Part shown: one piece after another, positions 34,966 to 51,868 of the stretch
Position numbering within the stretch: position 1 is the stretch's first letter
Layout of the letters: each line of letters opens with the position of its first letter
DNA from: Bacillus cereus
GTDB taxonomy: Bacteria > Bacillota > Bacilli > Bacillales > Bacillaceae_G
Direction: 5' to 3'
NCBI RefSeq assembly: GCF_002584535.1
Contig: NZ_NUOT01000002.1
Coordinates: 26,661-90,660, forward strand
Length of the DNA: 64,000 nt
Program-made: the position numbers and the translations under genes
Notes under the pieces: model-generated
Databases searched by the model: none
The model's input: the letters and a program-made list of their open reading frames with translations, nothing else
What the model was told of the DNA's origin: nothing

Positions 34966-36492
34966 ATGATACTAGATGCAGATATAAAAACACAACTAAC
35001 CCAATACCTTCAATTAATGGAGAACGATATTCTACTTAAAGTTAGCGCAGGATCCGATGACGTATCTAAAGATATGTTAGCTCTAGTAGATGAATTAGCT
35101 ACTATGTCATCTAAGATTACAGTGGAAAAAGCTGAGCTTGAAAGAACACCAAGCTTTAGCGTAAATCGCATCGGTGAAGACACTGGAGTAACTTTCGCTG
35201 GTATTCCTTTAGGACACGAATTTACTTCATTAGTGTTAGCGTTACTACAAGTGAGTGGACGTGCTCCAAAAGTTGAACAAAAAGTAATCGATCAAGTTAA
35301 AAACATTCAAGGTGAATATCATTTTGAATCTTATATCAGCTTAAGCTGTCATAACTGCCCGGATGTTGTACAAGCACTTAATGTAATGAGCGTTCTTAAC
35401 CCTGGTATTACACATACTATGATTGACGGCGCTGCATTTAAAGAAGAAGTGGAAAGCAAAGACATCATGGCAGTACCAACTGTTTACTTAAATGGTGAAT
35501 CCTTCGGCAGTGGTCGTATGACACTTGAAGAAATTCTAGCTAAGATGGGTAATGGTCCTGACGCATCAGAGTTTTCTGATAAAGATCCATACGATGTTCT
35601 TGTTGTTGGTGGCGGTCCAGCTGGTGCAAGTGCAGCAATTTACGCAGCACGTAAAGGCATCCGCACAGGTATCGTTGCTGAGCGCTTCGGTGGTCAAGTA
35701 ATGGATACAATGGGCATTGAGAACTTCATTAGCGTAAAACGCACTGAAGGCCCTAAGCTAGTAGCAAGCCTTGAAGAGCACGTAAAAGAGTACGATATTG
35801 ATGTAATGAAATTACAACGTGCGAAACGGTTAGAAAAGAAAGAACTTATTGAAGTGGAACTTGAAAATGGCGCTGTTCTGAAAAGTAAGAGCGTAATCAT
35901 TTCAACAGGTGCTCGTTGGCGCAATGTTGGCGTACCAGGTGAAGCTGAGTTCAAAAACAAAGGTGTAGCATACTGCCCTCACTGTGACGGTCCACTATTC
36001 GCTGGAAAACACGTAGCAGTTATCGGCGGCGGTAACTCTGGTATTGAAGCTGCAATCGACTTAGCAGGTATCGTAAAACACGTAACTGTTCTTGAGTTCA
36101 TGCCAGAATTAAAAGCTGATGCTGTCTTGCAAGAACGTCTTTACAGCCTACCTAACGTAACGGTTCTAAAGAACGTTCAAACAAAAGAAATTACTGGTAC
36201 TGACACAGTAAACGGTATTTCTTATATCGATCGTGAAACTGAAGAAGTTCATCATATTGAACTTCAAGGTGTATTCGTTCAAATCGGTCTTGTACCAAAC
36301 ACAGATTGGTTAGGCGATACTGTTGAACGTGTTCGCGGTGAAATCGTAACAGACAAGCACGGTGCTACAAATGTACCGGGAGTGTTTGCTGCAGGCGACT
36401 GTACAAATAATCCGTACAAACAAATCATTATTTCTATGGGATCAGGAGCGAATGCAGCTTTAGGTGCATTTGATTATCTAATCCGAAATTAA
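34966..36492 (+). CDS. ahpF: Alkyl hydroperoxide reductase flavoprotein subunit
   Basis: 508 aa. The N-terminal tandem thioredoxin-fold domain (1-195) carries the first redox pair [11 protein letters not shown] (about 126-136). The C-terminal part is thioredoxin-reductase-like: FAD motif [21 protein letters not shown] (about 210), redox pair [10 protein letters not shown] (about 335-344), NADH motif [17 protein letters not shown] and final [15 protein letters not shown]. It transfers electrons from NADH to AhpC. It is cotranscribed with ahpC, with codon use equally biased. Confidence 0.97.
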
Positions 36493-36512
36493 TGAACTGA
36501 TATGAACTTTAC

Positions 36513-36545
36513 AAAAGCAGGTGTCTTATCGACACCTGCTTTCTT
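36513..36545 (+). terminator. Terminator after ahpF
   Basis: AAAGCAGGTGTC / GACACCTGCTTT, 12-bp perfect stem with a 5-base loop and a partial T-run; may also serve the convergent methyltransferase gene. Confidence 0.85.
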
Positions 36546-37153
36546 TATAATTCTAATCTATAAACTAAAAACCTCTCATTCCCGTTCTTTTCATAAGCTC
36601 CAGGCAATCTAACTTCCTTGTTCAGGTCAAAAGCAGTCTGATTCTCTAAGAAAAAGATATAATCTTCCGACGGATAATACAAAATAAGTTCAACATCCCT
36701 CTCTACTTCTTCTACCGAAAGCAAAATGTTATTCACTACGTTCATAAATACTTGCACTGAAAATGGATTAAAGAAATAAAATCGATTATCACGTGGATCA
36801 ATTTCATATTCTTGTGCTAAACAACATTGAAATTGAACTTTATCCTTAATATTCTTTGATTTTCTTGCATAACGCTCACGGTTTTCCATTGCTTCCTTAT
36901 AGAACTCTTCATTCATTTCAATCCCAACTGCTGAAGCACCGCACTTATGATGCATATAAAAGTTTAGTCGCCCTTTTCCGCACCCAAAGTCTACTATTCG
37001 ATCATTACTACTTATTTCATATTGATTCAACAGTTCTTCTAGACCACTATATGGCGTTGGTTCATAGCGATGATAATGTAAAGATTTATTAAATCCTTTT
37101 TGTTCTCCAACTGTTTTTATATTTAATACCGCGTCATAATATTGTTCGTTCAT
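36545..37153 (-). CDS. Class I SAM-dependent methyltransferase
   Basis: 202 aa. Motif I is RIVDFGCGKGRLNFYMHH (about 52-70), followed by VGIEMNEEFYKEAM (acidic loop after strand 2), and a motif-IV-like YFFNPFSVQVF near 125. The NPF tripeptide recalls the (D/N)PP(F/Y) of amino-group methyltransferases, but the protein is too short and lacks a recognition domain, so the substrate is open. No membrane segment. Good AGGGTG ribosome site; single gene. Confidence 0.8.
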   Translation of the reverse strand: MNEQYYDAVLNIKTVGEQKGFNKSLHYHRYEPTPYSGLEELLNQYEISSNDRIVDFGCGKGRLNFYMHHKCGASAVGIEMNEEFYKEAMENRERYARKSKNIKDKVQFQCCLAQEYEIDPRDNRFYFFNPFSVQVFMNVVNNILLSVEEVERDVELILYYPSEDYIFFLENQTAFDLNKEVRLPGAYEKNGNERFLVYRLEL

Positions 37154-37328
37154 GTGTTCACCCTACTCTCTACAAAAAGAATCTTGATACAATCCAGAAT
37201 CTTTTCGATTTTCCGTCTTTTATTTTCTACGGAATCCAAATTACATGCGATCCAATTTTATCATATGAATCAATTTCATAATTTCCAATTCTAATATACC
37301 AAGGATTTTGAGGACACAAAAAGGAGTA

Positions 37329-37460
37329 CTATTCCAAATTTTTGTATAATGCAAATAACGACACAAACCAAAAACAAGAGAAGCCGTTAATTTCCTCTAT
37401 GCTTATTATATGATTTAGAGTTAATAAGACGATTCCAAACGTTTTTTCTATCTTGATCAT
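37329..37460 (-). CDS. Candidate small protein (43 aa)
   Basis: An ATG at 37460 with a perfect AGGAGG four bases upstream opens a 43-codon frame: MIKIEKTFGIVLLTLNHIIS, then IEEINGFSCFWFVSLFALYKNLE. The two halves are weakly hydrophobic. Against it: no recognisable family, no terminator of its own. The surrounding 37154-37651 gap holds otherwise only AT-rich sequence and the murR terminator at 37541-37576. It may be a real small gene or chance. Confidence 0.3.
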   Translation of the reverse strand: MIKIEKTFGIVLLTLNHIISIEEINGFSCFWFVSLFALYKNLE

Positions 37461-37540
37461 CGAACCTCCTATCGAAAGTACTTCAAAATCTTGTCTTGAT
37501 GGCGATGCTATGATTCTTCTAATAGTAAAAGTTATACAAA

Positions 37541-37576
37541 GAAAAAAGCCTTATCTTAAATAGACATAGGCTCTTT
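37541..37576 (-). terminator. Terminator after the MurR-type regulator gene
   Basis: Minus strand: AGCCT/AGGCT arms with a 16-base loop and TTTTTTC following, about 75 bases after the stop at 37652. It would end the whole amino-sugar operon. Confidence 0.55.
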
Positions 37577-37651
37577 AAATAACAGTTCAATAACTACGCA
37601 GCAAAAATCACAGGTAAATAATTTGTAATGAGACTTATTACACTTTATATC

Positions 37652-38515
37652 TTAGAAGGATTTTTTTCCTGTGAATCTTAATACTGATTCTCTTGAACGT
37701 TCAATTTCTTTAATATTTTCATCATAATATTTTGATGCATATGCATAAAAGATTATGTCAATAGTCAGAAATTGTGCGAATAACGAACTAGTTGCTGCAC
37801 TACGAAATTTTGCCTCTGGTGCACGAACATGTTGCAAAGACATATCGACTTTGTTAGTTAATCTGTTATTACCAAATCGTGATAATCCAATTGTTTGAAT
37901 ACCAGATGCTTTAGCAATATCAACAAGTTGCAGTACTTCTTCAGTTTCTCCACTATTAGATATACTGAAAAAAACACAATTTTTTGTGGATGCAGCAAGT
38001 GCTGTCGCCATGATATGTGCGTCTTGATTTGCACTTACAATCTTTCCTAAACGTAACCATTTATGAGTAATATCTTCCGCAACAAGCCATGAAGCTCCTA
38101 ATCCATAGGCATAAATAACATCAGCATTTCTCATAGTTTCAACAATTTGATTAAGAATAACTTCATCTAAATAAATCGCTGTTTCTTGTATCGCCTGTAC
38201 AGAGTTAGAAACTATTTTTTCTTTAATTTCCGCTATTGTTTCATTTGGTTCAATATCATAAAAACCTTTCTTCTCTGGTTGTGAGATATACGATGATAGA
38301 GATACCTTTAACTCCGAAAAACTAGCAATTTCGATAGAACGACAAAGTCTAGTGACCGCCGAACTACTAGCATTAGCATGCGCAGCTAATTCATGTATAG
38401 TCATTCTAATCACTTCTTGAGGATTGTCTAAAATATATTGTGCTATTTTCCCTTCAGACTTTGGTAATTGATGTAATAAACTCTCGATTTTTAACAATAC
38501 ATTTACAACATGCAT
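37652..38515 (-). CDS. murR: MurR/RpiR-family regulator
   Basis: 287 aa. The N-terminal HTH_6 domain (about 1-75) contains TIHELAAHANASSSAVTRLCRSI as the recognition region; the C-terminal SIS domain (about 125-260) contains VIYAYGLGASWLVAEDI and VFFSISNSGETEEVLQLV, the sugar-phosphate-binding loops. Such regulators sense a phosphosugar. The position at the end of an operon with murQ and mupG makes MurNAc-6-phosphate the likely effector and this operon the target. GGGAG ribosome site, 25 bp after the kinase gene. Confidence 0.88.
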   Translation of the reverse strand: MHVVNVLLKIESLLHQLPKSEGKIAQYILDNPQEVIRMTIHELAAHANASSSAVTRLCRSIEIASFSELKVSLSSYISQPEKKGFYDIEPNETIAEIKEKIVSNSVQAIQETAIYLDEVILNQIVETMRNADVIYAYGLGASWLVAEDITHKWLRLGKIVSANQDAHIMATALAASTKNCVFFSISNSGETEEVLQLVDIAKASGIQTIGLSRFGNNRLTNKVDMSLQHVRAPEAKFRSAATSSLFAQFLTIDIIFYAYASKYYDENIKEIERSRESVLRFTGKKSF

Positions 38516-38540
38516 ATTGAATGGCTCCCTTACCTTTTAA

Positions 38541-39437
38541 TTAACTCATATATTTCAGAGCTAAATAATATCCCCCTAATGTAGATGATACATCTTCTAA
38601 AATAAATTGGACTTTCGGTTTTTCTTGTTTAATATTTTCAATAAAGGCGGTTTGTACAGACGGTATATTAGTTAATATACCCCCTTTAATAGCAATTGTA
38701 ACATCGTTATCAAAATTTAGTTTCTTCCAAACAGCAAGCGTAGTCTTGGCAAGGTGATAGCCCGCTTGCTTGAGAATATTCTCTGCAAAATCATCTCCTG
38801 CTTTTGCTTGTTGAACGATTATTGGAACAAATGACGCAATATCCGCTTTAGTTGAGGAATAAATAAATGTTTTTAATTCTAGTACATTCTGATAACCAAG
38901 TTTTGTTAGTACCAACTTAGTTAGGTCACTATAATTCCCTTCCCCATCTTCCTCTTGCGTCATTTTAATAAAAGCCTGCATAGCAATCCAATACCCACTT
39001 CCTTCATCTCCAAGAATATGTCCCCAACCACCTGCTAATTTTTCAATACCATTATGAATTCCAATACTAACAGAACCGGTTCCTGAAATTGTTAAAATAC
39101 CATCTTTCCCTTTTAGTAAAGCTGCATGTGCAATAATTCCATCATTGACAATCGTAAACGGAATATGAAACGCCTCAGAGAGAGCATCTTTTATACCTTT
39201 TGTATTTTTAACCCCTCCATACCCGGCCAATCCTAGGCATATATACTGGCATTCTTCCTTTTTTAAAGGAACTAAGCATTGTTCAATCGCACTAATAATA
39301 TTATGCATAGCTTGTTTTTCATCTAAAAGTAAATTTCCGAACCCTGCTTTACCTTCACTTATTTTTTCACCATTTAAATTATAAGCTACCGCTTCCGTTT
39401 TAGTACCTCCACCGTCTACTCCAATAATATAACTCAT
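38541..39437 (-). CDS. BadF/BadG-type amino-sugar kinase (GlcNAc/MurNAc kinase)
   Basis: 298 aa. ASKHA-fold ATPase: IIGVDGGGTKTEAVAYNL (phosphate-1 loop, 3-20), CLGLAGYGGVKN (about 66), ILTISGTGSVSIGIHNG (phosphate-2, about 115) and AGGWGHILGDEGSGYWIA (about 134-151), the last typical of the N-acetylglucosamine kinase branch of BadF proteins. It should phosphorylate free GlcNAc, or both GlcNAc and MurNAc like clostridial MurK, feeding MurQ and the amino-sugar pool. AGGAGG ribosome site. A bcr1 element (39456-39614) separates it from mupG. Confidence 0.8.
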   Translation of the reverse strand: MSYIIGVDGGGTKTEAVAYNLNGEKISEGKAGFGNLLLDEKQAMHNIISAIEQCLVPLKKEECQYICLGLAGYGGVKNTKGIKDALSEAFHIPFTIVNDGIIAHAALLKGKDGILTISGTGSVSIGIHNGIEKLAGGWGHILGDEGSGYWIAMQAFIKMTQEEDGEGNYSDLTKLVLTKLGYQNVLELKTFIYSSTKADIASFVPIIVQQAKAGDDFAENILKQAGYHLAKTTLAVWKKLNFDNDVTIAIKGGILTNIPSVQTAFIENIKQEKPKVQFILEDVSSTLGGYYLALKYMS

Positions 39438-39455
39438 ACAGGTTCCTCCTTGTGT

Positions 39456-39614
39456 ATAAAGTGAAACTTTAATTAGTGGGGGTTTTCTTCATCCCCCACT
39501 GATTATCAGCCCTCACCAATCGGGCTTTTACGGACAGTCGATCTCCCACCTACCTTCTTTGCTTTTGCCGAATTTTGAGGTGGGAGTCTTACTGTCCGTA
39601 AATAACAGTATAAA
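39456..39614. repeat. bcr1-type repeat, copy A (159 bp)
   Basis: Bounded by ATAAA on both sides (39456-39460 and 39610-39614), the TTTAT duplication remembered for bcr1. Conserved core: GTGAAACTTTAATTAGTGG, ATCCCCCACTGATTAT, CACCAATCGGGCTTTTACGG and, near the end, TTACTGTCCGT pairing with ACGGACAGT at 39533-39541. Several stems can form (AGTGGGGG with CCCCCACT; CTCCCACC with GGTGGGAG). It lies between mupG and the kinase inside one operon, so it is transcribed with it. Confidence 0.85.
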
Positions 39615-39677
39615 TAAAAAGAGAAGGAGCGTTCTGTCCCTTCCCTTTCCCTTACTTTGAGGTTTTTCTCGATAAAA

Positions 39678-40763
39678 TCACTTAATTGAAAATTGGAATT
39701 TCTCCCAAGGATCGAGATAATCAAGGAGAAAAATTTCTTCTTCAACTATCCGGCCAACCACATTCGTTTTACCTGAATTCTCCATGTCTTTCAACGCAAT
39801 CTGTAATTCACCCTTGTATTGTCCATATAGCTCATTCTCAATTAAAATGTCTCCTCTTCTAATATCAGGGGTATAGGTTGGTTTAAGTTCTTCTCGTTTA
39901 TATTTTACACGTGATTGAGTCGAGCGAATAAGGTATTCTGAAACGTCTCCACGATAAAAATGAAATTCTTCCAGCACAATCTTTTTCTCTAACTCTGTAA
40001 TTGTGTCATATAGTTCTATATGAAACGTTAGCAATTTACTGTTTAATGTACTGAGGGCTTCTAATTCAATCTTTGATGCATATGCGTTAGCAATAATCAC
40101 ATCATCTATTACTCCAGTTGCAAATAAGTGTTTGGCTTGCGTTACAATTGGTAATTCACGATGCATTTCTAATGTACATAAACCTTCTGTTACCGGCCAA
40201 GGTCCGTAAGTTGCTGCTTGTGAACTAATGAATGCTGCTGTACGAATATTATGGTGTTTAAATTGCTCACAGCATTTTAGAAAATGAGCATAGCTTAATC
40301 CCGCATAACGATGAGGATAGAAATTATGTGACCCTACTAAATTCTCTTTATTAGGCTTATAAGCAATGAGATTATCTAAATAATGCGTTGCATTGCTCAT
40401 ATTAATTTCAACTTTTAAATTATAGGGATTATGTGTCATGATGGACTCTTCAGTTCCTGTAAATCCCATATCTAGACGGATTCCGTACGCTCCTAAATCA
40501 GCAAAGAATGATAAGTCTTTATAGGAAATATCTAAATCTCCAAATACACGAGGAGATATATCAACCATTACTTCCATACCTAATTGATTTGCAAATGCAA
40601 TTGTTTCTTTAAATTCCCTCATAATTTTTTCCTTATCACCTTCTACTGACAGCAAGCAAGTAAAGATTTTTTTAAATCCATATTTGTGTGCAAGTGCAAT
40701 ATACTCTATATCTTTTTCTACGGTTGAATGTTCTGGATAAATGGAGATACCTAATTTTCTCAT
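39678..40763 (-). CDS. mupG: MupG-like 6-phospho-N-acetylmuramidase (DUF871)
   Basis: 361 aa from the ATG at 40763 (AAAGGTGATG upstream). DUF871 marks: LGISIYPEHS at the N-terminus, VMVDISPRVFGDLDISY (about 72-88), LRLDMGF-type GIRLDMGFTG, LVGSHNFYPHRYAGLSY (about 150-166) and a C-terminal cyclophilin-like domain with RRGDILIENELYGQYKGELQI. The S. aureus member MupG hydrolyses MurNAc-6-phosphate-GlcNAc to MurNAc-6P and GlcNAc in the cytosol; the same operon partner murQ is present here. The product would then be processed by MurQ and the kinase. The assignment from DUF871 plus context is strong. Confidence 0.85.
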   Translation of the reverse strand: MRKLGISIYPEHSTVEKDIEYIALAHKYGFKKIFTCLLSVEGDKEKIMREFKETIAFANQLGMEVMVDISPRVFGDLDISYKDLSFFADLGAYGIRLDMGFTGTEESIMTHNPYNLKVEINMSNATHYLDNLIAYKPNKENLVGSHNFYPHRYAGLSYAHFLKCCEQFKHHNIRTAAFISSQAATYGPWPVTEGLCTLEMHRELPIVTQAKHLFATGVIDDVIIANAYASKIELEALSTLNSKLLTFHIELYDTITELEKKIVLEEFHFYRGDVSEYLIRSTQSRVKYKREELKPTYTPDIRRGDILIENELYGQYKGELQIALKDMENSGKTNVVGRIVEEEIFLLDYLDPWEKFQFSIK

Positions 40764-40795
40764 CTTTACATCACCTTTACCTTCCCACATCCCAA

Positions 40796-41125
40796 TTATT
40801 GTTGTGGCGCCAGTTTTTTTATGATACGGATCATATGTTCAATCAATTTTTGTTCGCTTATCGCGGTCATTAAGTGATCTTGAGCATGAATCATTAGCAA
40901 CGTTTTTTCACTTGGAATTCCGTTCAATTCAGCTTGAATTAACTTTGTTTGTGTCTTATGAGCCAAGCTAAGTTCTTCTGCAGCTTGGTTAATAAGATTC
41001 GCTGCTCTTTCAAAGTCAAATTCCTCTGCAGCTGTTAATGCTTCATAAGCTAAACCTCTTGCATTTCCACCATGAGAAATAATTTCAAAAATTTCCATTT
41101 CGTTATTATTGATTTCCGTTGACAT
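40796..41125 (-). CDS. PTS Lac-family EIIA (lactose/cellobiose/chitobiose type)
   Basis: 109 aa from the ATG at 41125; GGAG of the preceding codons is its ribosome site, so the upstream ATG at 41140 is rejected. All-helical Lac-type IIA: GGNARGLAYEALTAAEEFDFERA, NQAAEELSLAHKTQTKLIQAE (phosphorylated His about 79) and MIHAQDHLMTAI. It takes phosphate from HPr and passes it to the IIB encoded upstream. The IIA, IIB and IIC genes of this transporter are spread through the operon rather than contiguous. Confidence 0.92.
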   Translation of the reverse strand: MSTEINNNEMEIFEIISHGGNARGLAYEALTAAEEFDFERAANLINQAAEELSLAHKTQTKLIQAELNGIPSEKTLLMIHAQDHLMTAISEQKLIEHMIRIIKKLAPQQ

Positions 41126-41240
41126 ATCATAGCACTCCATATCGTAGTAAAGTATGGGACAATATTCTCTAACTGAAGTTACGTTTCAGAAAATATCATG
41201 TCTCAATTTGTCTTTCATATTAAATTTATTATTCTCCTAA

Positions 41241-42563
41241 TCATCTAAAAAATTGAGGCAAATACTCTTTATGGGCTTCTAATAACTTCTGTAATATAGC
41301 TTCCGCTAAATCATCACTTGGAATAAGTGGATTAATTGTTAAAGCTAATAAAGCCTTATCATAAGAACCCGTTACGGCTGCCTCAGCACCTACTCTTTCG
41401 AATGATTTGATTTGCTGAATTAATCCTTGAATTTGAATAGGCAATTTCCCCATCGTCAAAGGAACTGGTCCATTTTTTGTTACAATACAACTCACTTCAA
41501 CCGCTGAATCATAATCAACCTCATTAATTGCGCCTTTGTTTTGAATATTTAATACTTGAATTTCCTTTTTGTCATTATAGATAGAAGAAATTACATTACA
41601 CGCTGCATCACTATAGTATGCACCACCCCGCTTTTCTAATTGTGGAGGTTTCATGTCTAGCTTTTCATCTTTATACAACTCAAATAGATCTTCCTCTAAT
41701 TTCTTGACAATTTCAGCACGCGTTTTCCCTGATTTAAATGCTTCTAATTCTTCATCTAGAATATTTTTTGTTTTGTAATAATAACGATGATAGGGGCAAG
41801 GTACTACGCCTAATGATTTCAAAAATCTTGGATTCCAAGGCAGTGGAGCAATGTTCTTCATTGACATTTGTATCGCTGGATTCCCTAGCATTTCAAGTAC
41901 TTTCTCTGTTACTTCTTGATCATCAACATATACATGTATTCCGAATACCATATGGTTTAATCCAGCGAAATCAATGTGTACTCTCTCCATTTCAACACCT
42001 AACATGTTCGAAATAGACATGTGCATATTAAATGGTACATTACATACACCGATTACTTTTTTATGCTCGCTGTAACGAAGGAGTGCTTCTGTTACCATTC
42101 CAGCTGGATTTGTAAAGTTAATTAACCATGCATTTGAGCAAAGTTCTTGCATTTCTTCTGCGATTTCTAGAAGAACAGGGATTGTTCGTAATGCTTTAAA
42201 TAGGCCTCCTGCACCATTTGTTTCTTGCCCAATTAACCCTAGTTGCAAAGGAATACGCTCGTCTTTAATTCGGGCATCTAGTAAACCAACTCTCATTTGC
42301 GTTGTCACAAAGTCAGCATCCTGTAAAGCTTGACGGCGGTCTAACGTCAAATGAATTTCCATAGGAACTCCTGCCTTTTCAACCATTCTTCGTGCTAAGT
42401 TCCCTACAATCTCAAGTTTTTCCCTTCCGGCCTCAATATCCACTAACCAAAGTTCTCTAACTGGTAGCTCATCATAACGTTTAATAAAACCTTCAATTAA
42501 TTCTGGCGTGTAACTAGATCCACCACCAATTGTGGCAATTTTTATTCCGTTTCGCTTTTCCAT
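41241..42563 (-). CDS. GH4 6-phospho-glycosidase (6-phospho-beta-glucosidase type)
   Basis: 440 aa. NAD-binding start IKIATIGGGSSYTPELIEGF (8-27) and the GH4 metal ligands in VIGVCNVPFNMHM (Cys about 172) and DFAGLNHMVFG (His about 201) are intact. GH4 enzymes use NAD+ and Mn2+ and a redox elimination mechanism on 6-phosphorylated glycosides. In this operon the substrate could be a 6-phosphorylated GlcNAc- or MurNAc-containing disaccharide rather than cellobiose-6P; sequence alone cannot decide. It lies between the small membrane protein gene and PTS IIA. Confidence 0.88.
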   Translation of the reverse strand: MEKRNGIKIATIGGGSSYTPELIEGFIKRYDELPVRELWLVDIEAGREKLEIVGNLARRMVEKAGVPMEIHLTLDRRQALQDADFVTTQMRVGLLDARIKDERIPLQLGLIGQETNGAGGLFKALRTIPVLLEIAEEMQELCSNAWLINFTNPAGMVTEALLRYSEHKKVIGVCNVPFNMHMSISNMLGVEMERVHIDFAGLNHMVFGIHVYVDDQEVTEKVLEMLGNPAIQMSMKNIAPLPWNPRFLKSLGVVPCPYHRYYYKTKNILDEELEAFKSGKTRAEIVKKLEEDLFELYKDEKLDMKPPQLEKRGGAYYSDAACNVISSIYNDKKEIQVLNIQNKGAINEVDYDSAVEVSCIVTKNGPVPLTMGKLPIQIQGLIQQIKSFERVGAEAAVTGSYDKALLALTINPLIPSDDLAEAILQKLLEAHKEYLPQFFR

Positions 42564-42602
42564 TTCACTAACACCTCATTTTAGATAACTTACTTTTTTC
42601 AT

Positions 42603-42887
42603 TTACGCATAGACAATTGGGTAACAAATTAGTGCACTCGCTACTAATAAAGACAAGAACAAAATTAACGCTTGTTTCTTGTTTTTAAACTTACCTTCAA
42701 CAAAAATAAGAACAAGAGTTAACCCTGCGCTGATTGCAAAGATATTATCTAGGTACAGTGACAAGCGTTTGTCTATTCCAACTGCATTCATTAAAGGATT
42801 AAAGATAAGATTAAAAACAAGAATAAAACTAAAAAATAGAAACGCACTTTTGTAACTAAAAAAGTGAATTCTAGATGTTGAATTCAT
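42603..42887 (-). CDS. Small membrane protein in the amino-sugar PTS operon
   Basis: 94 aa from the ATG at 42887 (GAAGGGAG upstream). Three hydrophobic segments: about 12-30 (SAFLFFSFILVFNLIF), 47-64 (IFAISAGLTLVLIFV) and 72-92 (ALILFLSLLVASALICY), linked by short basic loops with GKFKNKKQ on the inside. No family recognised. It follows the IIC gene and precedes the GH4 gene, so it may assist the permease or be a minor subunit, but this is only inference from position. A stable hairpin (42912-42954) precedes it. Confidence 0.65.
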   Translation of the reverse strand: MNSTSRIHFFSYKSAFLFFSFILVFNLIFNPLMNAVGIDKRLSLYLDNIFAISAGLTLVLIFVEGKFKNKKQALILFLSLLVASALICYPIVYA

Positions 42888-42911
42888 TTTTATCTCCCTT
42901 CTCTCTTTTAT

Positions 42912-42954
42912 ATGAAAGGAAGTTTGGAGCAATTAGTCCCAAACCTCCTTTCAT
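42912..42954 (-). promoter_or_regulatory. Intercistronic hairpin after PTS IIC
   Basis: ATGAAAGGA-GTTTGG pairs with CCAAAC-TCCTTTCAT (one bulged pair) over a 10-base loop, right after the IIC stop and without a T-tract on the minus strand. It may act as a partial terminator or mRNA stabiliser within the operon. Confidence 0.5.
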
Positions 42955-42960
42955 GTATTT

Positions 42961-44250
42961 TTATAAGGCTACGTTTGTGTCCTCTTTTGTTTCTGTTGGA
43001 TTTTCTTGTGCTAATAGCTTTTGATCATACATTTTAAAGAATGGTAGATAAACAATAACTGAAATCGTAATATTGACTAATACAAGAATAATTGCTCTCC
43101 AGTCACCACCCGTTGAAAGGTAGGCACCTATTGGGGCTGGTAATGTCCATGGAACCATTACATATGTCGGATTTACTAATCCGATTGATGTCGCGACATA
43201 CGCAATTGTTGCACCAATTAATGGTGTCACGACAAATGGAATAATTAAAATTGGGTTTAGCACAATTGGCATCCCAAAAATAACAGGTTCATTGATGTTA
43301 AATATACTTGGAACAATTGTTGCTCTTGCCATCGTCTTACTATAAGTAGATCTTGCTGTTAATAACATCGCAATTACTAATCCTAATGTTGCACCAGATC
43401 CCCCAATCCAAATAAACCATTGGAAGAATGTTTCAGGAGCTACGTGAGGGATCGTCTCACCAGCAGCAACTGCCGCTGAGTTATTAGCCAAGTAAACTTC
43501 CCAAACTGGACGAGCAACAGCACCTACAACTGATACACCATGAATACCGAATGACCAGAAAAATGTTATTAAAAAGACTGGAATTAATACACCTGGTAAT
43601 GTATCCCCAGCTTTAATAAGTGGTGCAACAGCTTTATCAACAAGTGAATGTAGATCAACACCTGCAACTACTGTAATTAATGTCATAATAGAGAGTACGA
43701 TTGTAACTGGTATTAACGCTTCAAATGAACGAGATACGGACGTTGGAACAGAATCTGGCATTTTTATTGTAATATTTTTAGTCTTACATAAACGTATCAT
43801 TTCAACCGAAAATATAGAAACAATCATCGCTACAAAGAGCCCATGCCCACCGAGGTTTGTCATTGGCAATACAAAACCTATATCTTTCACCATTTTTACG
43901 CCTATTGTGAATAAGAAGGCAGCTACCGATAATAATCCTCCTGATAAAGGGTCTAACTTATAGCTTTGAGACAGACTATGACCGATTCCAAAAGTAATAT
44001 ATAGGGTCATAATAAACATTGTTAATCGATAAGGTATTAAAATCTCCGCGATATGTTTTGCTGCCCATTGACCTATTGCGGAATCTGCTGCCACGGGTGG
44101 GAAAGCAATGATAAGAAATATGCTCCCAAAGATGATGAATGGCAAAGCAGAAACTACACCATCACGTATCGCACGTAAATGCTTCTGCTCAGACAATTTA
44201 GCCATAGGTGTCGATAAATTATTTTCTAAAAAAGCTACAAATTTGTTCAT
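42961..44250 (-). CDS. PTS Lac-family EIIC (cellobiose/diacetylchitobiose type)
   Basis: 429 aa with about ten membrane segments. Lac-family marks: HLRAIRDGVVSALPFIIFGSIF (about 24-45), WSFGIHGVSVVGAVARPVW (about 228), FFQWFIWIGGSGATLGLV and, as substrate-site signature, PSIFNINEPVIFGMPIVLNP (about 310-330). It forms the membrane channel for a beta-linked disaccharide and works with the separate IIB and IIA here. No MurP-type IIBC is encoded in this operon. The 233-bp gap to IIB holds a bcr1 repeat. Confidence 0.92.
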   Translation of the reverse strand: MNKFVAFLENNLSTPMAKLSEQKHLRAIRDGVVSALPFIIFGSIFLIIAFPPVAADSAIGQWAAKHIAEILIPYRLTMFIMTLYITFGIGHSLSQSYKLDPLSGGLLSVAAFLFTIGVKMVKDIGFVLPMTNLGGHGLFVAMIVSIFSVEMIRLCKTKNITIKMPDSVPTSVSRSFEALIPVTIVLSIMTLITVVAGVDLHSLVDKAVAPLIKAGDTLPGVLIPVFLITFFWSFGIHGVSVVGAVARPVWEVYLANNSAAVAAGETIPHVAPETFFQWFIWIGGSGATLGLVIAMLLTARSTYSKTMARATIVPSIFNINEPVIFGMPIVLNPILIIPFVVTPLIGATIAYVATSIGLVNPTYVMVPWTLPAPIGAYLSTGGDWRAIILVLVNITISVIVYLPFFKMYDQKLLAQENPTETKEDTNVAL

Positions 44251-44323
44251 TTGTATTTTCCCCTTTAGATTGATTAGTAGTTAAGATTTCTTGCTAGATT
44301 ATGTTTTTACTATCCACAAACGA

Positions 44324-44475
44324 ATAAAGTGAAACTTCCAGCAGTTATTCTTTCTCATCCCCCAATGAGTCTGCACCAATCGGGATTTTACGGGTAGGTA
44401 ATCTCTCACCTACCTTCCTCTTTCCTCTCTGATTCTTGAGGTAGAAGTCTTACTACCCGCGAATAACAAAATAAA
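44324..44475. repeat. bcr1-type repeat, copy B (152 bp)
   Basis: ATAAA borders at 44324-44328 and 44471-44475. It is collinear with copy A but diverged: GTGAAACTTC, ATCCCCCAATGAGT, CACCAATCGGGATTTTACGGGTAG, CTCACCTACC and CTTACTACCCGCGAATAAC; ACGGGTAG pairs with CTACCCG. It lies between the IIB and IIC genes of the same operon. The 44251-44483 gap holds nothing else. Confidence 0.8.
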
Positions 44476-44483
44476 TAACAACT

Positions 44484-44795
44484 TTAATTTGATTGTATTA
44501 TTTCATTAATTAAATTTAATAGAGCAGGTCCACCAAGGGGACTATATGATCGAGCAGGAATCATTAAACACGGGACTCCTGCTTCATCTGCAGAAGCTTT
44601 AAAACCATCAAATCGATGTTTTACTTGTGGGGCAACCATAGCAACATCCCAACCGTTTCGAACCTCTGAATCAAATTCTTGCGTACCAACAGCTAATACT
44701 TCTAAATTTTGACCATGCTTTTCCCCTTCTTTTTTCAACGCATTTACAACAATCGCACTCGACATTCCACCTGAACATACAAATAATACTTTCAT
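44484..44795 (-). CDS. PTS Lac-family EIIB
   Basis: 103 aa. The phosphorylated Cys is in VLFVCSGGMSSAIVVNAL (Cys about 6), the P-loop of Lac-type IIB. VAMVAPQVKHRFDGFK and VPCLMIPARSYSPLGGPALLN are the later conserved stretches. It shuttles phosphate from IIA to the sugar held by IIC. GAGGGGGAG ribosome site, 36 bp after murQ. Confidence 0.92.
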   Translation of the reverse strand: MKVLFVCSGGMSSAIVVNALKKEGEKHGQNLEVLAVGTQEFDSEVRNGWDVAMVAPQVKHRFDGFKASADEAGVPCLMIPARSYSPLGGPALLNLINEIIQSN

Positions 44796-44831
44796 TTTTA
44801 CTCCCCCTCATAATATTTTTATATTGAAGCT

Positions 44832-45716
44832 TTAAATTGCTTTTCTTATAAATCCCTCTGCTGCGTTTAAACGCTCTACGGCTTCCTCATAAGAAACATT
44901 TGTTAAAATCATAACAATGGCAACCTTAGGTTGATTATTTGCTTTTACTAAGTATTTTTCTGCTACTTCATAACTGCATTCAGTGGCATCCATAACAATA
45001 CGTTTTGCACGTTCAACCAACTTTTCATTTGTTAACTGCAAATCTACCATTAAATTCCCATAAACTTTTCCAATCCCAACCATTGAAGCTGTTGAGAGCA
45101 TGTTACATACTAATTTTTGAGCTGTTCCAGCTTTTAAGCGGGTGGATCCTGTAAGTACTTCAGGTCCATTTACAACTTCAATGGCAATTGCAGCAATTTT
45201 TCCAATCTCTGATTCCTTATTGCAACTTATCGCTACTGTGCCTGCCCCAAGTTGATTTGCATAATTTAGCCCCGCAATAACATAAGGCGTACGCCCACTC
45301 GCAGCAATGCCTACTACAACATCGTTACTCGTTAATTGGATTTTTTCTAAATCTTGACGACCTAATATAAAACTATCCTCTGCGCCCTCAACTGCCTTAA
45401 TAAATGCACTTTCTCCACCTGCGATTAAACCTACTACTTTACTAGGATCAGTATTGAACGTTGGCGGGCATTCTACAGCATCCAACAATCCAATGCGCCC
45501 GCTTGTTCCCGCACCCATATAGATTAATCTACCGCCGCGTTTCATCGCCGCAACAATCATCTCTACAGCTTTTGCAATTTGAGGGAGTTCTTTTTGAACA
45601 CAGTAAGCAACTTTCATATCTTCTTCATTCATCACCTCCAATAGATTAAGCATTTTCATTTCATCTAAAAATATAGTCTTTTCATTACGCCCTTCCGTTG
45701 TTAAATGTTCTAGCAT
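44832..45716 (-). CDS. murQ: N-acetylmuramic acid 6-phosphate etherase
   Basis: 294 aa from the ATG at 45716, with GAAGGATG upstream; the ATG three codons earlier overlaps that site. SIS-domain etherase: MLEHLTTEGRNEKT start, GRLIYMGAGTSGRIGLLDAVECPPTF (about 57-82), AGGESAFIKAVEGAEDS (catalytic Glu, about 103-119), VGIAASGRTPYVIAGL and KAGTAQKLVCNMLSTASM. It removes D-lactate from MurNAc-6P to give GlcNAc-6P, the key step in MurNAc recycling. It is first in the operon, behind a sigma-A-type promoter with repeated candidate operators. Confidence 0.95.
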   Translation of the reverse strand: MLEHLTTEGRNEKTIFLDEMKMLNLLEVMNEEDMKVAYCVQKELPQIAKAVEMIVAAMKRGGRLIYMGAGTSGRIGLLDAVECPPTFNTDPSKVVGLIAGGESAFIKAVEGAEDSFILGRQDLEKIQLTSNDVVVGIAASGRTPYVIAGLNYANQLGAGTVAISCNKESEIGKIAAIAIEVVNGPEVLTGSTRLKAGTAQKLVCNMLSTASMVGIGKVYGNLMVDLQLTNEKLVERAKRIVMDATECSYEVAEKYLVKANNQPKVAIVMILTNVSYEEAVERLNAAEGFIRKAI

Positions 45717-45778
45717 ATAAATCATCCTTCTATCATTCGTAATCTAAAAGCTTTTTCGAAACCGCTTTCTTTAATAAG

Positions 45779-45839
45779 ACTATAGCATCATTAAAAATAA
45801 ATTTCAATAATCAAAGATAATTTTAAAATAAAATTTCAA
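45779..45839 (-). promoter_or_regulatory. murQ operon promoter with repeated operator-like sequence
   Basis: Minus strand: TTGAAA (45802-45807), 17-base spacer, TATAGT (45779-45784). A 17-bp sequence, TTAAAAATAAATTTCAA at 45791-45807, recurs with two changes at 45823-45839, 32 bp apart (about three helical turns), the first copy covering the -35. This is a candidate binding site for the operon's MurR/RpiR regulator. Confidence 0.6.
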
Positions 45840-45881
45840 AAAATCTACACAATTAGAAAACTAGTGAGTATAATAACTAAT

Positions 45882-45895
45882 TGTCAACGCTTACA
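45882..45895. promoter_or_regulatory. cre-like site between murQ and anmK
   Basis: TGTCAACGCTTACA matches TGNAANCGNWNNCW with one mismatch. It lies upstream of both divergent genes. The rest of the 45717-46098 gap contains no gene. Confidence 0.45.
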
Positions 45896-46098
45896 TTTTT
45901 TGTAAACTAAAAATAAGAAAAGGATGTATACCATTAAGTAAAGAAAGCATTTCTAAAAAAATTAGGTTCATTGGCAATATCAATTTTTTAGGTGAATCAC
46001 TACTACTTCCACTTAGAGTTTCATCATCGTTTTATAAGAATCACCATTGTCGCTTAGCAAGGAATTAAAAAAATCTATGCAAAGTAGGTGTTATGATA

Positions 46099-47298
46099 AT
46101 GTACATTGTTGGGTTAATGTCTGGAACATCATTGGATGGTATTGATGCTGTGCTTATCCGTGTGAATAATAGCAAACTAAACACCGAGTTAGAAATGATT
46201 GAATTTATAACACATCCTTTTCCAAAAGATGTTAGAGGAGAAATTATACAGTCATTGTCTGTAGATACATCTAATGTGCAGCTAATTTGTAGTTTAAACT
46301 TTAAACTAGGAAAATTATTTGCAGATGCTACAAAGGAAGTTTGCAAAAAAGCCGGATTTCCTTTAGATCAGCTGGATCTTATAGGATCTCATGGGCAAAC
46401 GATTTACCATCAGCCCTTGCAAGAACAAAACTTGGTCCCCTCAACTCTGCAAATTGGAGAACCTTCGGTAATTGCGTACGAAACAAATACAACCGTAATA
46501 TCTAATTTCCGTACTATGGACATAGCAGCGGGTGGACAGGGTGCTCCTTTAGTACCTTATACTGAATATGTTCTTTACCGGAGTGAAACAAAGGGAAGGT
46601 TGTTACAAAACATCGGGGGCATCGGAAATGTAACTGTTTTACCTAAGCAATCTTCACTAGATAACATGTATGCCTTTGATACAGGACCTGGAAATATGAT
46701 TATTGATGAGGTATGTCGCCAATTGTTTAACATAGGATACGATGAAGGTGGTAATTTAGCGAAACAAGGGAAAATAAATGAACAGCTCCTATCATACTGC
46801 ATAAATCACCCTTATATTATGAGCCCTCCTCCCAAAACAACAGGAAGAGAATTGTTTGGTAAGCAATATGTTGAAAAACTATTAAATAAGTTTAATAATC
46901 TTTCAAGCCACGATATAGTAGCAACTGTAACAATGTTTACAGCGCAATCTATTGTAGAGAACTATCGCAACTTTATCCTTCCACAAGTTAAAATCGATGA
47001 AGTCATTATTGGAGGCGGTGGCAGCTATAATACAACTTTACTGAAAATGATTCAATCACTACTTGGGGAGTCAATTCAAATTTACACCCAAGAGGAATTA
47101 GGATACTCTTCGGAGGCTAAAGAGGCTATAGCGTTTGCTCTTCTTGCAAATGAAACCTACCATGGTAATGTAAGTAACGTTCCAAATGCTACAGGTGCAA
47201 AAAACGCTGTCGTTCTTGGGAACGTGTCCTTCCCAACATCAGATCATTGGATTAAGATAAGAAATTCTTTAGAAGAAAGCAGGGATTTCATCAACTGA
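46099..47298 (+). CDS. anmK: Anhydro-N-acetylmuramic acid kinase
   Basis: 399 aa from the second ATG (46099; AGGTG eight bases upstream). Signature [18 protein letters not shown] at the N-terminus, [13 protein letters not shown] (about 93), [12 protein letters not shown] (about 173), [15 protein letters not shown] (about 194) and [17 protein letters not shown] (about 310). It hydrolyses and phosphorylates 1,6-anhydroMurNAc to MurNAc-6P, which MurQ next door consumes. It is divergent from the murQ operon and its last codons run into a diverged bcr1-like sequence. Confidence 0.95.
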
Positions 47299-47390
47299 GG
47301 ATTTCTTCATCCCCACCTGATGCTTAACTCTAACCAATCAGACTATCCCTACCTCGTCATTGAAGTAGGGATAGCGCGATAAAGTAAAGA
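47290..47390. repeat. Diverged bcr1-like sequence at the anmK 3' end
   Basis: From the last codons of anmK the order TTCTTCATCCCCACCTGATG, TAACTCTAACCAATCAGACT and CGATAAAG parallels TTCTTCATCCCCCACTGATT, CACCAATCGGGC and the ATAAA border of the other copies. It is shorter and more diverged. Its stem CTATCCCTAC/GTAGGGATAG (47343-47374) may act as the anmK terminator. The following 47391-47545 is AT-rich with no gene. Confidence 0.55.
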
Positions 47391-47545
47391 AATTATAATG
47401 TCATTCTTATACTCAAAAAATTTTCTCATAGAAATACCGGGAACTATTTGTGCTAGTTTGTATTTCTATCGATTTGAATTTTGTCCTCTAACAAGGCAAA
47501 GGATCAATTATGAAATTGATTCAAATGTAAAAAATAAAAACAATA

Positions 47546-48652
47546 CTAGTTTAAAACTTTCAACACAGTTTGCTTCATTATTTCTACTCCATCCATTATG
47601 CAAGCATGATCAAATTTCATATAAGGGTGATGTAACCCTGGCTTTAAATTTGCTCCTAATCCTAACATAACGGCTTTTAAATGCGGTCTCTTGACTGTAT
47701 AATAATGAAAATCATCACTTCCTGTAGTATAAAGCGGTGGTGCGCAACCTTCTTTCCCATATATTTCAATAATCCCTTTGCGCATGATTTGTTCTGCCTC
47801 TTCCGAAACCTGTGCCCCAGGCGCAATATCAACCCATCCGTAAGAAATCTTTGTTCCCATTGATTCAGCTGACTGAATGACATGCTCTATCCTTTTCATT
47901 AACTCCTCGAGCAATGCATTATTCTCAGCTCTTACATCTAAACCGAATTGTCCATTCCCTGGAATGATATTTAAATTATCTCCACCAGCTTGGCATTTCG
48001 TCATTTTGACAGAATATGATTTTTGCGGAGATAGCCATATATTTTTTAATCCGATATTAATCATAGAAAGGACATCAATTGCATTCACACCTTGATGCGG
48101 TCGTGCTCCATGTGCATCCTCCCCATGTATATTCGCTTCTAAGAAGGCTGCTGCTCCGTGACGGATAGATGGTGCTGCTTTTTTAAAAGGTAATTCCTCA
48201 ATTGGACGTAAATGAACACCAAATAAGAAATCAGCGTCATCAACCACACCTTTCTCCACCATTTTTAAAGCGCCGTTCCCTTTTTCTTCTGCAGGTTGGA
48301 AAATAAATCTAACTGTTCCGCTTTTCCAACTGGCATTTTTCAATTGTAAAATAAGCCCCATCGCAATCGTCATATGGGCATCGTGACCACATGAATGATT
48401 CGCTTTAAATTCTCCATCTACTTCTTGCCACAATGCATCCATATCAGCTCGAATCGCGATAACTGGCTTCCCGTTCCCAACCTCTGCGATCACTCCAGGA
48501 CAATCATCAAATGTTTTATATGAAATTTCTTCTTCTTTTAGAAATTGAGTGATATAAGCTGTTGTCTCATATTCCTTCCAACTCACTTCAGGGTTTTCGT
48601 GTAAATGCTGAAAAATTTCTGTTAAACGCTCTTGTAGCTCTAAAGTTTTCAA
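47546..48652 (-). CDS. M20-family amidohydrolase (N-acyl amino acid deacylase)
   Basis: 368 aa from a TTG at 48652 with GGAAGGAG upstream. M20D motifs: AIRADMDAL (about 70, first Zn-side Asp), NHSCGHDAHM (about 86-95), IFQPAEEKGNGALKMVEKG (about 117, catalytic Glu pair) and a final HHPYMKFDH. Similar to the B. subtilis AmhX/hippurate hydrolase group. It cleaves the acyl group from N-acyl amino acids. Divergence from an N-succinyl-amino-acid racemase gene and an acyltransferase makes an N-succinyl-L-amino acid the likely substrate. Confidence 0.85.
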   Translation of the reverse strand: MKTLELQERLTEIFQHLHENPEVSWKEYETTAYITQFLKEEEISYKTFDDCPGVIAEVGNGKPVIAIRADMDALWQEVDGEFKANHSCGHDAHMTIAMGLILQLKNASWKSGTVRFIFQPAEEKGNGALKMVEKGVVDDADFLFGVHLRPIEELPFKKAAPSIRHGAAAFLEANIHGEDAHGARPHQGVNAIDVLSMINIGLKNIWLSPQKSYSVKMTKCQAGGDNLNIIPGNGQFGLDVRAENNALLEELMKRIEHVIQSAESMGTKISYGWVDIAPGAQVSEEAEQIMRKGIIEIYGKEGCAPPLYTTGSDDFHYYTVKRPHLKAVMLGLGANLKPGLHHPYMKFDHACIMDGVEIMKQTVLKVLN

Positions 48653-48890
48653 CCTTCCAGTCTCCTTCCTAAATTCGAAGCAGTTTTTCGTTTATAAAAA
48701 ATCCTATTTCGAAAAACATATTGAATATTCACTTAAATGTCAAGAGATTGTCCCTTCATTTCTTTTGAAATATAATAAGATAATTAAGATTAAAATTCCG
48801 AAAATTCTTTTAAATCACTCATCATTTATCTAAACTCCTTATGAATACGTATAACTTTAAATCTATGACACAAAGGACGTGAATTATACA

Positions 48891-50000: not shown

Positions 50001-50014
50001 AGGAGGACTACACC

Positions 50015-50710
50015 ATGGATATCCTTTATGAAGGAACATTAAAACAAAATGTGCAAAACTTTCAAGTTACAACATTATCGTTAAATCACGTTGAGGAAAT
50101 CCTATTATTACAGGATATCATAATTGAAGCATTAGAAAATAAGGATCGTCTGCAGCCTCTGACACTAGAAGAATTTCGATACATATTAAACAGTAATGGC
50201 ATGATGATAGGTGCCTTTGCAGGAGACCAATTGATCGCATTCCGTGCCCTATTAGTCCCTCCTATTGATGAGGATCATTTAGGACTTGATATTGGTTTAA
50301 CACATGAAGAATTAGAGCGGGTTATCTATCAAGAAATTTCAAACGTCCACCCTGACTATCGTGGCAATGGCATGCAAAAAATATTAGCGAAAGTCATTAT
50401 GAAAAAGTTACAACAAGCCGATGGTAAATTCGATTACGTTTGTTGCACCGTTGCACCATTTAACATTCCGAGTTTAAAAGATAAATTTGCGCAAGGAATG
50501 GAAATTGCGGCGCTGAAGGAGAAGTATGGCGGTAGTATGCGGTATGTTTTTGTAAAGGAGTTGCGTAAAGATAAGGAAAGAGATTGGACGGATATTAAAA
50601 GCGTTCCGATGAATAATACTAGTGAACAACAGGCATTACTTGCGGAGGGGTATCGTGGGTATGAGATGGAGAAAATAGATGAGAATTTTATTGTGAAGTT
50701 TGGACAATAA
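50015..50710 (+). CDS. GNAT-family acyltransferase
   Basis: 231 aa, AAAGGAGG ribosome site, 14 bp after the racemase gene. The acyl-CoA-binding motif A is YQEISNVHPDYRGNGMQKILAKVIM (about 109-133). The N-terminal third is a family-specific helical region. In N-succinyl-amino-acid racemase operons a GNAT succinyltransferase of this type acylates D-amino acids with succinyl-CoA; that role is inferred here. The stop codon TAA lies within the ATAAA border of a bcr1 copy, so the repeat inserted exactly at the end of the gene. Confidence 0.8.
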   Translation: MDILYEGTLKQNVQNFQVTTLSLNHVEEILLLQDIIIEALENKDRLQPLTLEEFRYILNSNGMMIGAFAGDQLIAFRALLVPPIDEDHLGLDIGLTHEELERVIYQEISNVHPDYRGNGMQKILAKVIMKKLQQADGKFDYVCCTVAPFNIPSLKDKFAQGMEIAALKEKYGGSMRYVFVKELRKDKERDWTDIKSVPMNNTSEQQALLAEGYRGYEMEKIDENFIVKFGQ

Positions 50711-50986: not shown

Positions 50987-51047
50987 TTAGGGTTCTACGT
51001 TATTTTAAGCCATATACTCTACATGTCTAGAGTAATAGTAACCGCCA

Positions 51048-51755: not shown

Positions 51756-51792
51756 TTCATCACCTAGCGTATTTGTTCTTATTATTTTACAA

Positions 51793-51825
51793 ATAAAAAA
51801 GAGTAGGCTATAAACGTCCTACTCT
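51793..51825 (-). terminator. Terminator after the DUF1456 gene
   Basis: Minus strand: AGAGTAGG/CCTACTCT stem with a 10-base loop followed by TTTTTTATTTG. Confidence 0.85.
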
Positions 51826-51868
51826 ACCTATTATATCATTTACTGCTTTACCATGAATGTTACAATGC

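Follow-up and report, generated by a model that had tools for sequence, protein, structure and literature searches.

Which disaccharide does a bacterium take up, and on which of its two sugars is the phosphate placed, when genes for the metabolism of N-acetylmuramic acid (MurNAc) share an operon with a Lac-family phosphotransferase system (PTS)? The question is raised by ten genes in a 64,000-nucleotide stretch of Bacillus cereus DNA (RefSeq assembly GCF_002584535.1, contig NZ_NUOT01000002.1, positions 26,661 to 90,660 of the forward strand), the whole of which is called the window here. Knowledge of how Gram-positive bacteria recycle peptidoglycan comes mostly from MurP, with MurNAc or its disaccharide with N-acetylglucosamine (GlcNAc), MurNAc-GlcNAc, as the substrate. 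Comparisons of gene content and protein sequence lead us to favour, at a probability of roughly 0.57, the reading that the window operon salvages peptide-free peptidoglycan disaccharides with GlcNAc at the non-reducing end and that this GlcNAc becomes phosphorylated, the reverse of the arrangement in Staphylococcus aureus.

Nine of the genes lie on the minus strand, running from murQ at 45725 down to a regulator at 37652, and anmK lies on the plus strand. An earlier note on this DNA had described the set, and its coordinates, strands and families are all confirmed, each named family being matched above its curated score when the window proteins were compared with profiles:

44832..45725, minus strand, murQ, N-acetylmuramic acid 6-phosphate etherase (TIGR00274, 410.5 bits, cut-off 302; motifs DAVECPP and KAVEGAED)
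44484..44795, minus strand, PTS Lac/cellobiose-type EIIB (PF02302, 43 bits, cut-off 23.6; N-terminus MKVLFVCSGGMSSA, with the expected early Cys)
42961..44250, minus strand, PTS Lac/cellobiose-type EIIC (TIGR00410, 410.2 bits, cut-off 236)
42603..42932, minus strand, small hydrophobic membrane protein between IIC and GH4 (no Pfam or NCBIfam model matched)
41241..42563, minus strand, GH4 NAD-type 6-phospho-glycosidase, ChbF-like (PF02056, 235.2 bits, cut-off 23.2; PF11975, 203.1 bits, cut-off 24.1)
40796..41140, minus strand, PTS Lac/cellobiose-type EIIA (PF02255, 109.7 bits, cut-off 27)
39678..40790, minus strand, GH170 glycosidase, annotated MupG (MupG_N, 330.4 bits, cut-off 24; MupG_C, 145.3 bits, cut-off 24.4)
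38541..39437, minus strand, BadF-type sugar kinase (PF01869, 140.3 bits, cut-off 31.5)
37652..38515, minus strand, RpiR/MurR-family regulator (HTH_6, 76.2 bits, cut-off 28.3; SIS, 57.9 bits, cut-off 25)
46093..47298, plus strand, anmK, anhydro-N-acetylmuramic acid kinase, divergent from murQ (NF007142 equivalog, 631.8 bits, cut-off 435; motif DTGPGN)
45881..45896, either strand, candidate cre site for catabolite control in the murQ-anmK spacer (one mismatch)

The motifs linked to activity in MurQ, AnmK, GH4 and BadF enzymes are intact. In 1,6-anhydroMurNAc, which is always a reducing-end unit, the C6 oxygen is locked in the anhydro ring; a PTS can therefore phosphorylate only the preceding GlcNAc. 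If AnmK serves a sugar imported by the PTS, the imported species would be the 6-phosphate GlcNAc6P-anhydroMurNAc, and the glycosidase would act on a 6-phospho-GlcNAc end. The argument is conditional, as AnmK might instead receive its substrate by a different route. The earlier note had proposed either GlcNAc-MurNAc or MurNAc-GlcNAc as the imported disaccharide: the first, with an anhydro or a free reducing end, fits AnmK, whereas the second, the S. aureus orientation, cannot feed it, because anhydroMurNAc cannot arise from MurNAc6P-GlcNAc and the kinase would be left without a substrate.

We infer a pathway in which the substrates would be GlcNAc-1,6-anhydroMurNAc, the lytic transglycosylase product, and probably also GlcNAc-MurNAc, the muramidase product. 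The Lac-type PTS would import the disaccharide and phosphorylate C6 of its GlcNAc, MurNAc being the reducing sugar, and GH170 would split GlcNAc6P-(anhydro)MurNAc into GlcNAc6P and (anhydro)MurNAc, the ChbF-like GH4 doing likewise where the GlcNAc is N-deacetylated. AnmK would then convert anhydroMurNAc to MurNAc6P, the BadF kinase would phosphorylate free MurNAc (and/or GlcNAc), MurQ would convert MurNAc6P to GlcNAc6P and D-lactate, and the RpiR protein would sense a phosphosugar of the pathway. Since GlcNAc-MurNAc leaves free MurNAc behind, a MurNAc kinase would be needed, a possible role for BadF; MurP-type systems, in which MurNAc6P is made directly, do without either kinase (0 of 65 loci in the survey that follows).

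The survey started from the window GH170 protein. Named genomes contributed 71 loci and an even class sample of 299 genomes a further 100 neighbourhoods, annotated with profiles made from the window proteins and one MurP. The class sample held 103 GH170 matches, of which 100 were fetched, one (L001) was already included and two fragments, G146 (whose GH170 piece adjoins AnmK) and G154, were omitted. Dropping the duplicates L085 (= L006) and L087 (= L048), which were retained in the class-sample count because each place occurs there once, leaves 169 distinct loci: 65 with MurP, 47 with a Lac-type IIC together with AnmK and/or MurQ (peptidoglycan-type below), 37 with Lac-type subunits and neither enzyme, and 20 with no transporter or undecided. 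Four MurP calls of 430-452 bits (L036, L041, L068 and L157) lie far under the rest (597 and up) and are probably other Glc-family PTS genes; the doubtful L157 (452 bits, without MurQ) was kept among the 65, and the other three, which have a Lac-type IIC, were counted as Lac type.

The 47 peptidoglycan-type loci were selected by the presence of AnmK or MurQ, so their counts for these enzymes (44 and 36, both in 33) are not independent of that choice. The same loci carry BadF in 42 cases (33 of them no more than 200 bp from GH170) and GH4 in 28, and all three of IIA, IIB and IIC were detected in 35. MurP-type loci have MurQ in 64 of 65 cases and none of AnmK, BadF or GH4 (0/65 each). Among MurQ-bearing loci of the even class sample, AnmK is present in 7 of 8 Lac-type loci versus 0 of 64 MurP-type loci. 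The 47 come from Bacillaceae, Listeriaceae, Enterococcaceae, Carnobacteriaceae, Clostridiaceae and one Lachnospiraceae record, and within the first 71 loci an identical gene order is kept in ten Peribacillus-type relatives. This conserved order and the appearance of the combination in 47 of 169 loci argue against a chance arrangement; the gene-neighbourhood survey that the earlier note had suggested thus upholds its description: an operon for peptidoglycan sugars whose Lac-family PTS has separate subunits is a real and recurrent combination.

The GH170 proteins fall into two groups. In a tree of 95 of the 171 rows after dereplication (this and all other trees are quick ones without bootstrap, save that of the relatedness-controlled test below), a long 99% branch parts all 37 MurP-linked rows from 55 rows that include the window protein and every peptidoglycan-type Lac row. 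The MurP-linked, or MupG, group was recognised by its mupG-murQ-murP-murR neighbourhoods, the sequences of S. aureus MupG and Lacticaseibacillus paracasei ChbE lying outside the tree. The window GH170 has both the MupG_N and MupG_C domains, yet its identity to MurP-linked rows is only 24-32% (57 rows that could be aligned over a long stretch), compared with 60-86% to peptidoglycan-type Lac rows. Some positions are specific to the clade, for example S48, H160, S190, an inserted W198-P199 and N235 of the window protein, and may be where the lactyl group is recognised. A single genome (that of L001) can hold three GH170s: a window-type copy, a second in a MurQ-less Lac locus (L075, 51% identical) and a third neighbouring MurP (L155, 29%). 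The identification of the window protein as MupG in the earlier note is therefore not supported, and the name should not be transferred. The activity of MupG itself was demonstrated in S. aureus, and its authors expected remoter members of the family to differ in function (PMC6262408). If AnmK serves the pathway, the Lac-linked GH170 would be a 6-phospho-N-acetylglucosaminidase.

GH170 and MurQ together define the S. aureus pathway, and the mupG-murQ-murP-murR system shares with the window a PTS that imports and 6-phosphorylates a peptidoglycan disaccharide, a GH170, MurQ and a MurR/RpiR regulator (PMC6262408). Its MurP is a Glc-family EIIBC, the phosphate is placed on MurNAc, and AnmK, BadF and GH4 are absent; the window differs in its Lac-family PTS, the group of its GH170, its two kinases and its GH4. 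An operon working in the S. aureus orientation would import MurNAc-GlcNAc with the phosphate on MurNAc, have it cleaved by a MupG, rescue the GlcNAc with BadF and finish with MurQ. Such a role for BadF would fit a family that includes GlcNAc kinases (the window protein matches the GlcNAc-kinase model NF046058, below its cut-off), but BadF is missing from all 65 MurP-type loci, which follow this route, AnmK would have no role, and both the GH170 and the transporter stand outside the MurP/MupG groups; we regard this orientation as very improbable.

The transporter is of the Lac family by its matches to PF02255, PF02302 and TIGR00410, and has separate IIB and IIC chains, not the single-chain Glc-family EIIBC of MurP. 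Against the NCBIfam equivalog models for cellobiose, lactose and chitobiose (the last being PRK10297), the window IIC scores 410, 257 and 226, where 434, 614 and 760 are needed; as all three are missed, the models do not name its substrate. It is 40.5% identical to B. cereus ChbC (3qnq), its sole solved relative (300 bits), and 32.9% identical to Escherichia coli ChbC. In a tree of 62 of 88 rows after dereplication, which has several long branches, all 27 peptidoglycan-linked IIC rows fall inside a 96% set of 35, whereas the characterised ChbC proteins of B. cereus and E. coli fall inside a separate 99% set of 19 with no peptidoglycan-linked row. This separation speaks for a specialised transporter rather than for a chitobiose importer placed by chance next to murQ.

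No MurP was found within the window, where the single match spans 50 residues at 36%. Among 40 chosen related genomes, a MurP-like gene is present in 27 (E 8.6e-81 or better) and missing from 13, where the best match has E 5.7e-58 or weaker. The statement of the earlier note that the Lac-type PTS stands in place of MurP is hence too strong: in most of the relatives tested it is a second system, not a simple replacement. Nine of the 13 genomes (G023, G027, G028, G029, G031, G033, G034, G035 and G039) have their sole above-cut-off MurQ inside the Lac-type locus, which makes them natural test organisms. Of the other four, G009 and G024 have two MurQs each, that of G013 lies on what may be another contig than the locus, and in G040 MurQ is interrupted.

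These results also bear on the possibility that a chitobiose or cellobiose PTS with GH170 and GH4 merely neighbours a MurQ and an AnmK fed by another route, as parts of a general amino-sugar regulon. The association of GH170 with a Lac-type PTS is already published for both sugars (PMC12791066, PMC6271610). The L. paracasei operon ChbR-A-B-C-D-E combines a Lac/cellobiose-type PTS with a GH170, ChbE, that is required together with the PTS for growth on N,N'-diacetylchitobiose; it differs from the window in its chitobiose substrate and its DUF3284 protein, and encodes neither MurQ nor AnmK nor a sugar kinase (PMC12791066). By analogy, ChbE, which would act on GlcNAc6P-GlcNAc, is a functional precedent for the Lac-linked GH170s. 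DUF3284 was searched for in 19 chosen genomes and lies inside two GH170 loci, L099 and L105, which the GH170 tree places on its Lac side. CELO2 of Bacillus coagulans, assigned to cellobiose, likewise has Lac-type IIB, IIA and IIC with a DUF871 (GH170) gene, MurQ, AnmK, GH4 and BadF being unreported in the accessible portion (PMC6271610). A chitobiose or cellobiose function would also suit the ChbF-like GH4, the solved ChbC relative of IIC, the 37 of 169 loci in which GH170 is paired with Lac-type subunits without AnmK and MurQ, and a GH170 adjoining Lac-type IIC/IIA/IIB genes on a Borreliella cp26 plasmid. It is nonetheless unlikely, in view of the clustering of peptidoglycan-linked IICs apart from both ChbC proteins, of the nine MurP-less genomes, whose only MurQ lies in the cluster with no other PTS as an obvious partner, and of the near absence of the deacetylase on which E. 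coli ChbF depends.

That deacetylase, ChbG, has no counterpart in the window, and a ChbG-like gene lies near only one of the 171 loci (L068). The window GH4 scores 693 bits to 1s6y and, over 435 amino acids, shares 50.6% identity with E. coli ChbF, an enzyme that cleaves the glucosamine-6-phosphate glycosides produced via ChbG deacetylation (PMC12791066). The E. coli chbBCARFG operon thus resembles the window in its Lac-type PTS and GH4, and differs in ChbG, in the AraC-type ChbR, in an IIC of another group and in the lack of GH170, MurQ and AnmK. Judged by its relationship to ChbF, the window GH4 may act on an N-deacetylated substrate, and N-deacetylated peptidoglycan could supply glucosamine ends without ChbG. 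The earlier suggestion that MupG and GH4 each handle one linkage or orientation found no evidence; the kinship with ChbF suggests instead that the two enzymes distinguish the acetylation state of the same GlcNAc.

As for the kinases, among solved relatives of the window AnmK, levoglucosan kinase scores highest (263.6 bits) and a bacterial AnmK lower (240 bits). The best solved relative of BadF is the Clostridium acetobutylicum MurNAc/GlcNAc kinase MurK (8zo3, 117 bits), which phosphorylates both sugars (PMC4858229). This top match had made BadF a candidate MurK orthologue, but a 100% branch separates the two and the candidate was rejected. In MurK of Tannerella forsythia, residues at the SPL position favour MurNAc (PMC10465942); the window protein has GGW there, and the MurNAc-using C. 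acetobutylicum enzyme also has GGWG. BadF thus probably acts on MurNAc and/or GlcNAc, the role of GlcNAc rescue kinase proposed in the earlier note being possible and that of MurNAc kinase equally so.

Upstream of uptake, a GHL10 gene stands beside 21 of the 47 peptidoglycan-type loci, versus 0 of 65 MurP-type and 0 of 37 other Lac-type loci, and many of these GHL10 proteins carry a signal-like start or a wall anchor. The family includes E. coli DigH (453 bits), which cleaves denuded glycans as a glucosaminidase or a muramidase (PMC12288456). In two relatives (L017 and L194), GHL10 is fused in one reading frame to SpoIID beside AnmK, GH170 and MurQ; in a third (L195) the fusion is in two pieces. 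SpoIID domains are lytic transglycosylases, and one homologue is a muramidase on denuded glycans (PMC6635528), so that these neighbours fit peptide-free GlcNAc-(anhydro)MurNAc as the substrate. The secreted GHL10, sometimes SpoIID-fused, recalls E. coli DigH and SpoIID; in E. coli, DigH acts in cell separation, and the available part of its report does not describe a link to PTS uptake (PMC12288456).

Taken together, the preferred reading can be extended to a fuller proposal, which we hold tentatively and at a little under even odds: a Gram-positive PTS route for GlcNAc-1,6-anhydroMurNAc as GlcNAc6P-anhydroMurNAc, with a two-by-two enzyme set in which GH170 would take N-acetylated and GH4 N-deacetylated GlcNAc, and AnmK anhydro and BadF reducing MurNAc. 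In some relatives, a secreted GHL10-SpoIID fusion would produce the disaccharide from denuded glycan.

Several observations weigh against the salvage of GlcNAc-(anhydro)MurNAc by a dedicated operon. GHL10 is absent from the window; 9 of the 21 GHL10 loci are Peribacillus-type, the class sample giving only 2 of 11, and GHL10 could no longer be taken to mark Lac-type loci exclusively when MurP-type loci reached later proved to contain GHL10 (L200) or a SpoIID protein (L196). IIA and/or IIB were not detected nearby in 12 of the 47 peptidoglycan-type loci, eight of which are named Enterococcaceae. With relatedness controlled, AnmK and MurQ co-occur in 3.6 versus 0.3 of 5 independent pairs, a number of pairs at which significance is unreachable, and AnmK and BadF co-occur unremarkably (2.2 versus 1.1); these phylogenetic sign tests, for which the GH170 rows were cut to 48 of Lac type, are underpowered, as the supported branches yield just 5 to 7 such pairs. 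Fisher p-values for the class-sample counts take no account of relatedness and were given no weight. AnmK is above its cut-off in 61 of the 299 genomes and beside GH170 in only about 11, so it has other settings too. Finally, one Lac-linked row (L133) falls on the MurP side of the GH170 tree, and peptidoglycan-type and other Lac loci are intermixed in it, the label needing 9 changes, so that GH170 alone does not separate substrates.

The intermixing, together with the presence of GH4 in 10 and BadF in 9 of the 37 Lac loci without MurQ or AnmK, would also suit a broad importer, taking up chitobiose, glucosamine-GlcNAc and GlcNAc-(anhydro)MurNAc alike, with GH170 and GH4 cutting the GlcNAc6P or glucosamine-6-phosphate end and the kinases sorting whichever sugar is released. 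The clustering of the peptidoglycan-linked IICs suggests at least some specialisation of the transporter, and we consider a broad importer rather unlikely.

Novelty was assessed in the open-access literature, subscription papers lying outside its scope. There, the combination of AnmK, MurQ, GH170 and a Lac-type PTS was not found, in agreement with the view of the earlier note that it is undescribed; nor was a description found of PTS uptake of GlcNAc-anhydroMurNAc, of GlcNAc6P-anhydroMurNAc as a metabolite, or of an assigned uptake route for anhydroMurNAc-ended fragments that would serve the AnmK of many Bacillota. The nearest comparison is the AmpG-NagZ-AnmK-MurQ pathway of E. coli, in which AnmK and MurQ also finish the use of GlcNAc-anhydroMurNAc; it relies on unphosphorylated import and hydrolysis by NagZ (PMC5061867), whereas PTS import and a phospho-glycosidase are proposed for the window. 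The operon thus offers a specific, testable uptake route with the phosphate on the opposite sugar. Moreover, many proteins labelled MupG (6-phospho-N-acetylmuramidase) belong to the second GH170 group, whose members probably act where the terminal sugar is 6-phospho-GlcNAc, with consequences for automatic annotation and for metabolic models.

Some further features of the locus and its relatives were recorded. From murQ to the regulator, the intergenic gaps measure 36, 233, 28, 39, 100, 5, 240 and 25 nt, and the divergent murQ-anmK spacer of 367 nt contains the candidate cre; the cre pattern is frequent in the window (24 matches at no more than one mismatch versus 13.3 expected) and is therefore weak evidence. 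Both long gaps (233 and 240 nt), between IIB and IIC and between GH170 and BadF, carry copies of one intergenic repeat of 100-170 nt, which occurs in three copies that are 71-90% alike (39456-39620, 44324-44481 and 50706-50810), two of them within the operon. Compared with shuffled sequences, one copy folds much more stably (z -9.2 on the plus and -7.3 on the minus strand), another barely so (z -2.2 and -1.6). An Rfam search of window positions 36000-52000, repeats included, gave no match.

The region beyond anmK (47546-50710) encodes an M20 amidohydrolase, an enolase-superfamily protein and an open reading frame without a Pfam match. A role in muropeptide recycling was considered for the enolase-superfamily gene (48879-50000), which Pfam describes as L-Ala-D/L-Glu epimerase-like, and was rejected, as its best solved relative (771 bits) is 2p88, which we take to be an N-succinylamino-acid racemase. 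The region probably serves amino-acid racemisation or metabolism, not muropeptide recycling.

Relatives of the window's small membrane protein occur in 29 of the 47 peptidoglycan-type loci versus 2 of the 37 other Lac loci. More widely, small proteins of about 100 amino acids from several dissimilar families recur in such loci, in many cases near IIC (for example window 42603-42932, L084 12238-12540 and L045 7442-7783); besides the window type, one group occurs in 11 and another in 4 of 48 loci before dereplication, and none of the recurrent proteins matched Pfam. They are possibly an accessory subunit of the peptidoglycan-linked IIC group.

On a Priestia megaterium plasmid, the PTS, GH4, GH170, BadF, MurQ, AnmK and GHL10 genes are all found together. 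The module is plasmid-borne in Priestia (L015 and L207; nine Priestia records, one of them read), and may therefore move between strains.

The Borreliella americana cp26 plasmid encodes a GH170 48% identical to that of the window (L205 4766-5863), which, as in many other Borreliella records, is annotated 'alpha3-beta1 integrin-binding protein'; its position beside Lac-type IIC/IIA/IIB genes suggests a cytoplasmic phospho-glycosidase. In Mycoplasmopsis columboralis (L204 1-2202, in a 17 kb record), AnmK follows directly behind a GH170-like sequence spread over several frames, as if this wall-less organism could use, or once used, the peptidoglycan sugar of other bacteria. On a Clostridioides difficile plasmid (L206 7995-13153), the genes after a GH170 and a Lac-type PTS encode an amidohydrolase, a lyase of the DgaE family, a KDGP aldolase and a sugar kinase, neighbours that suggest a further substrate for Lac-linked GH170s.

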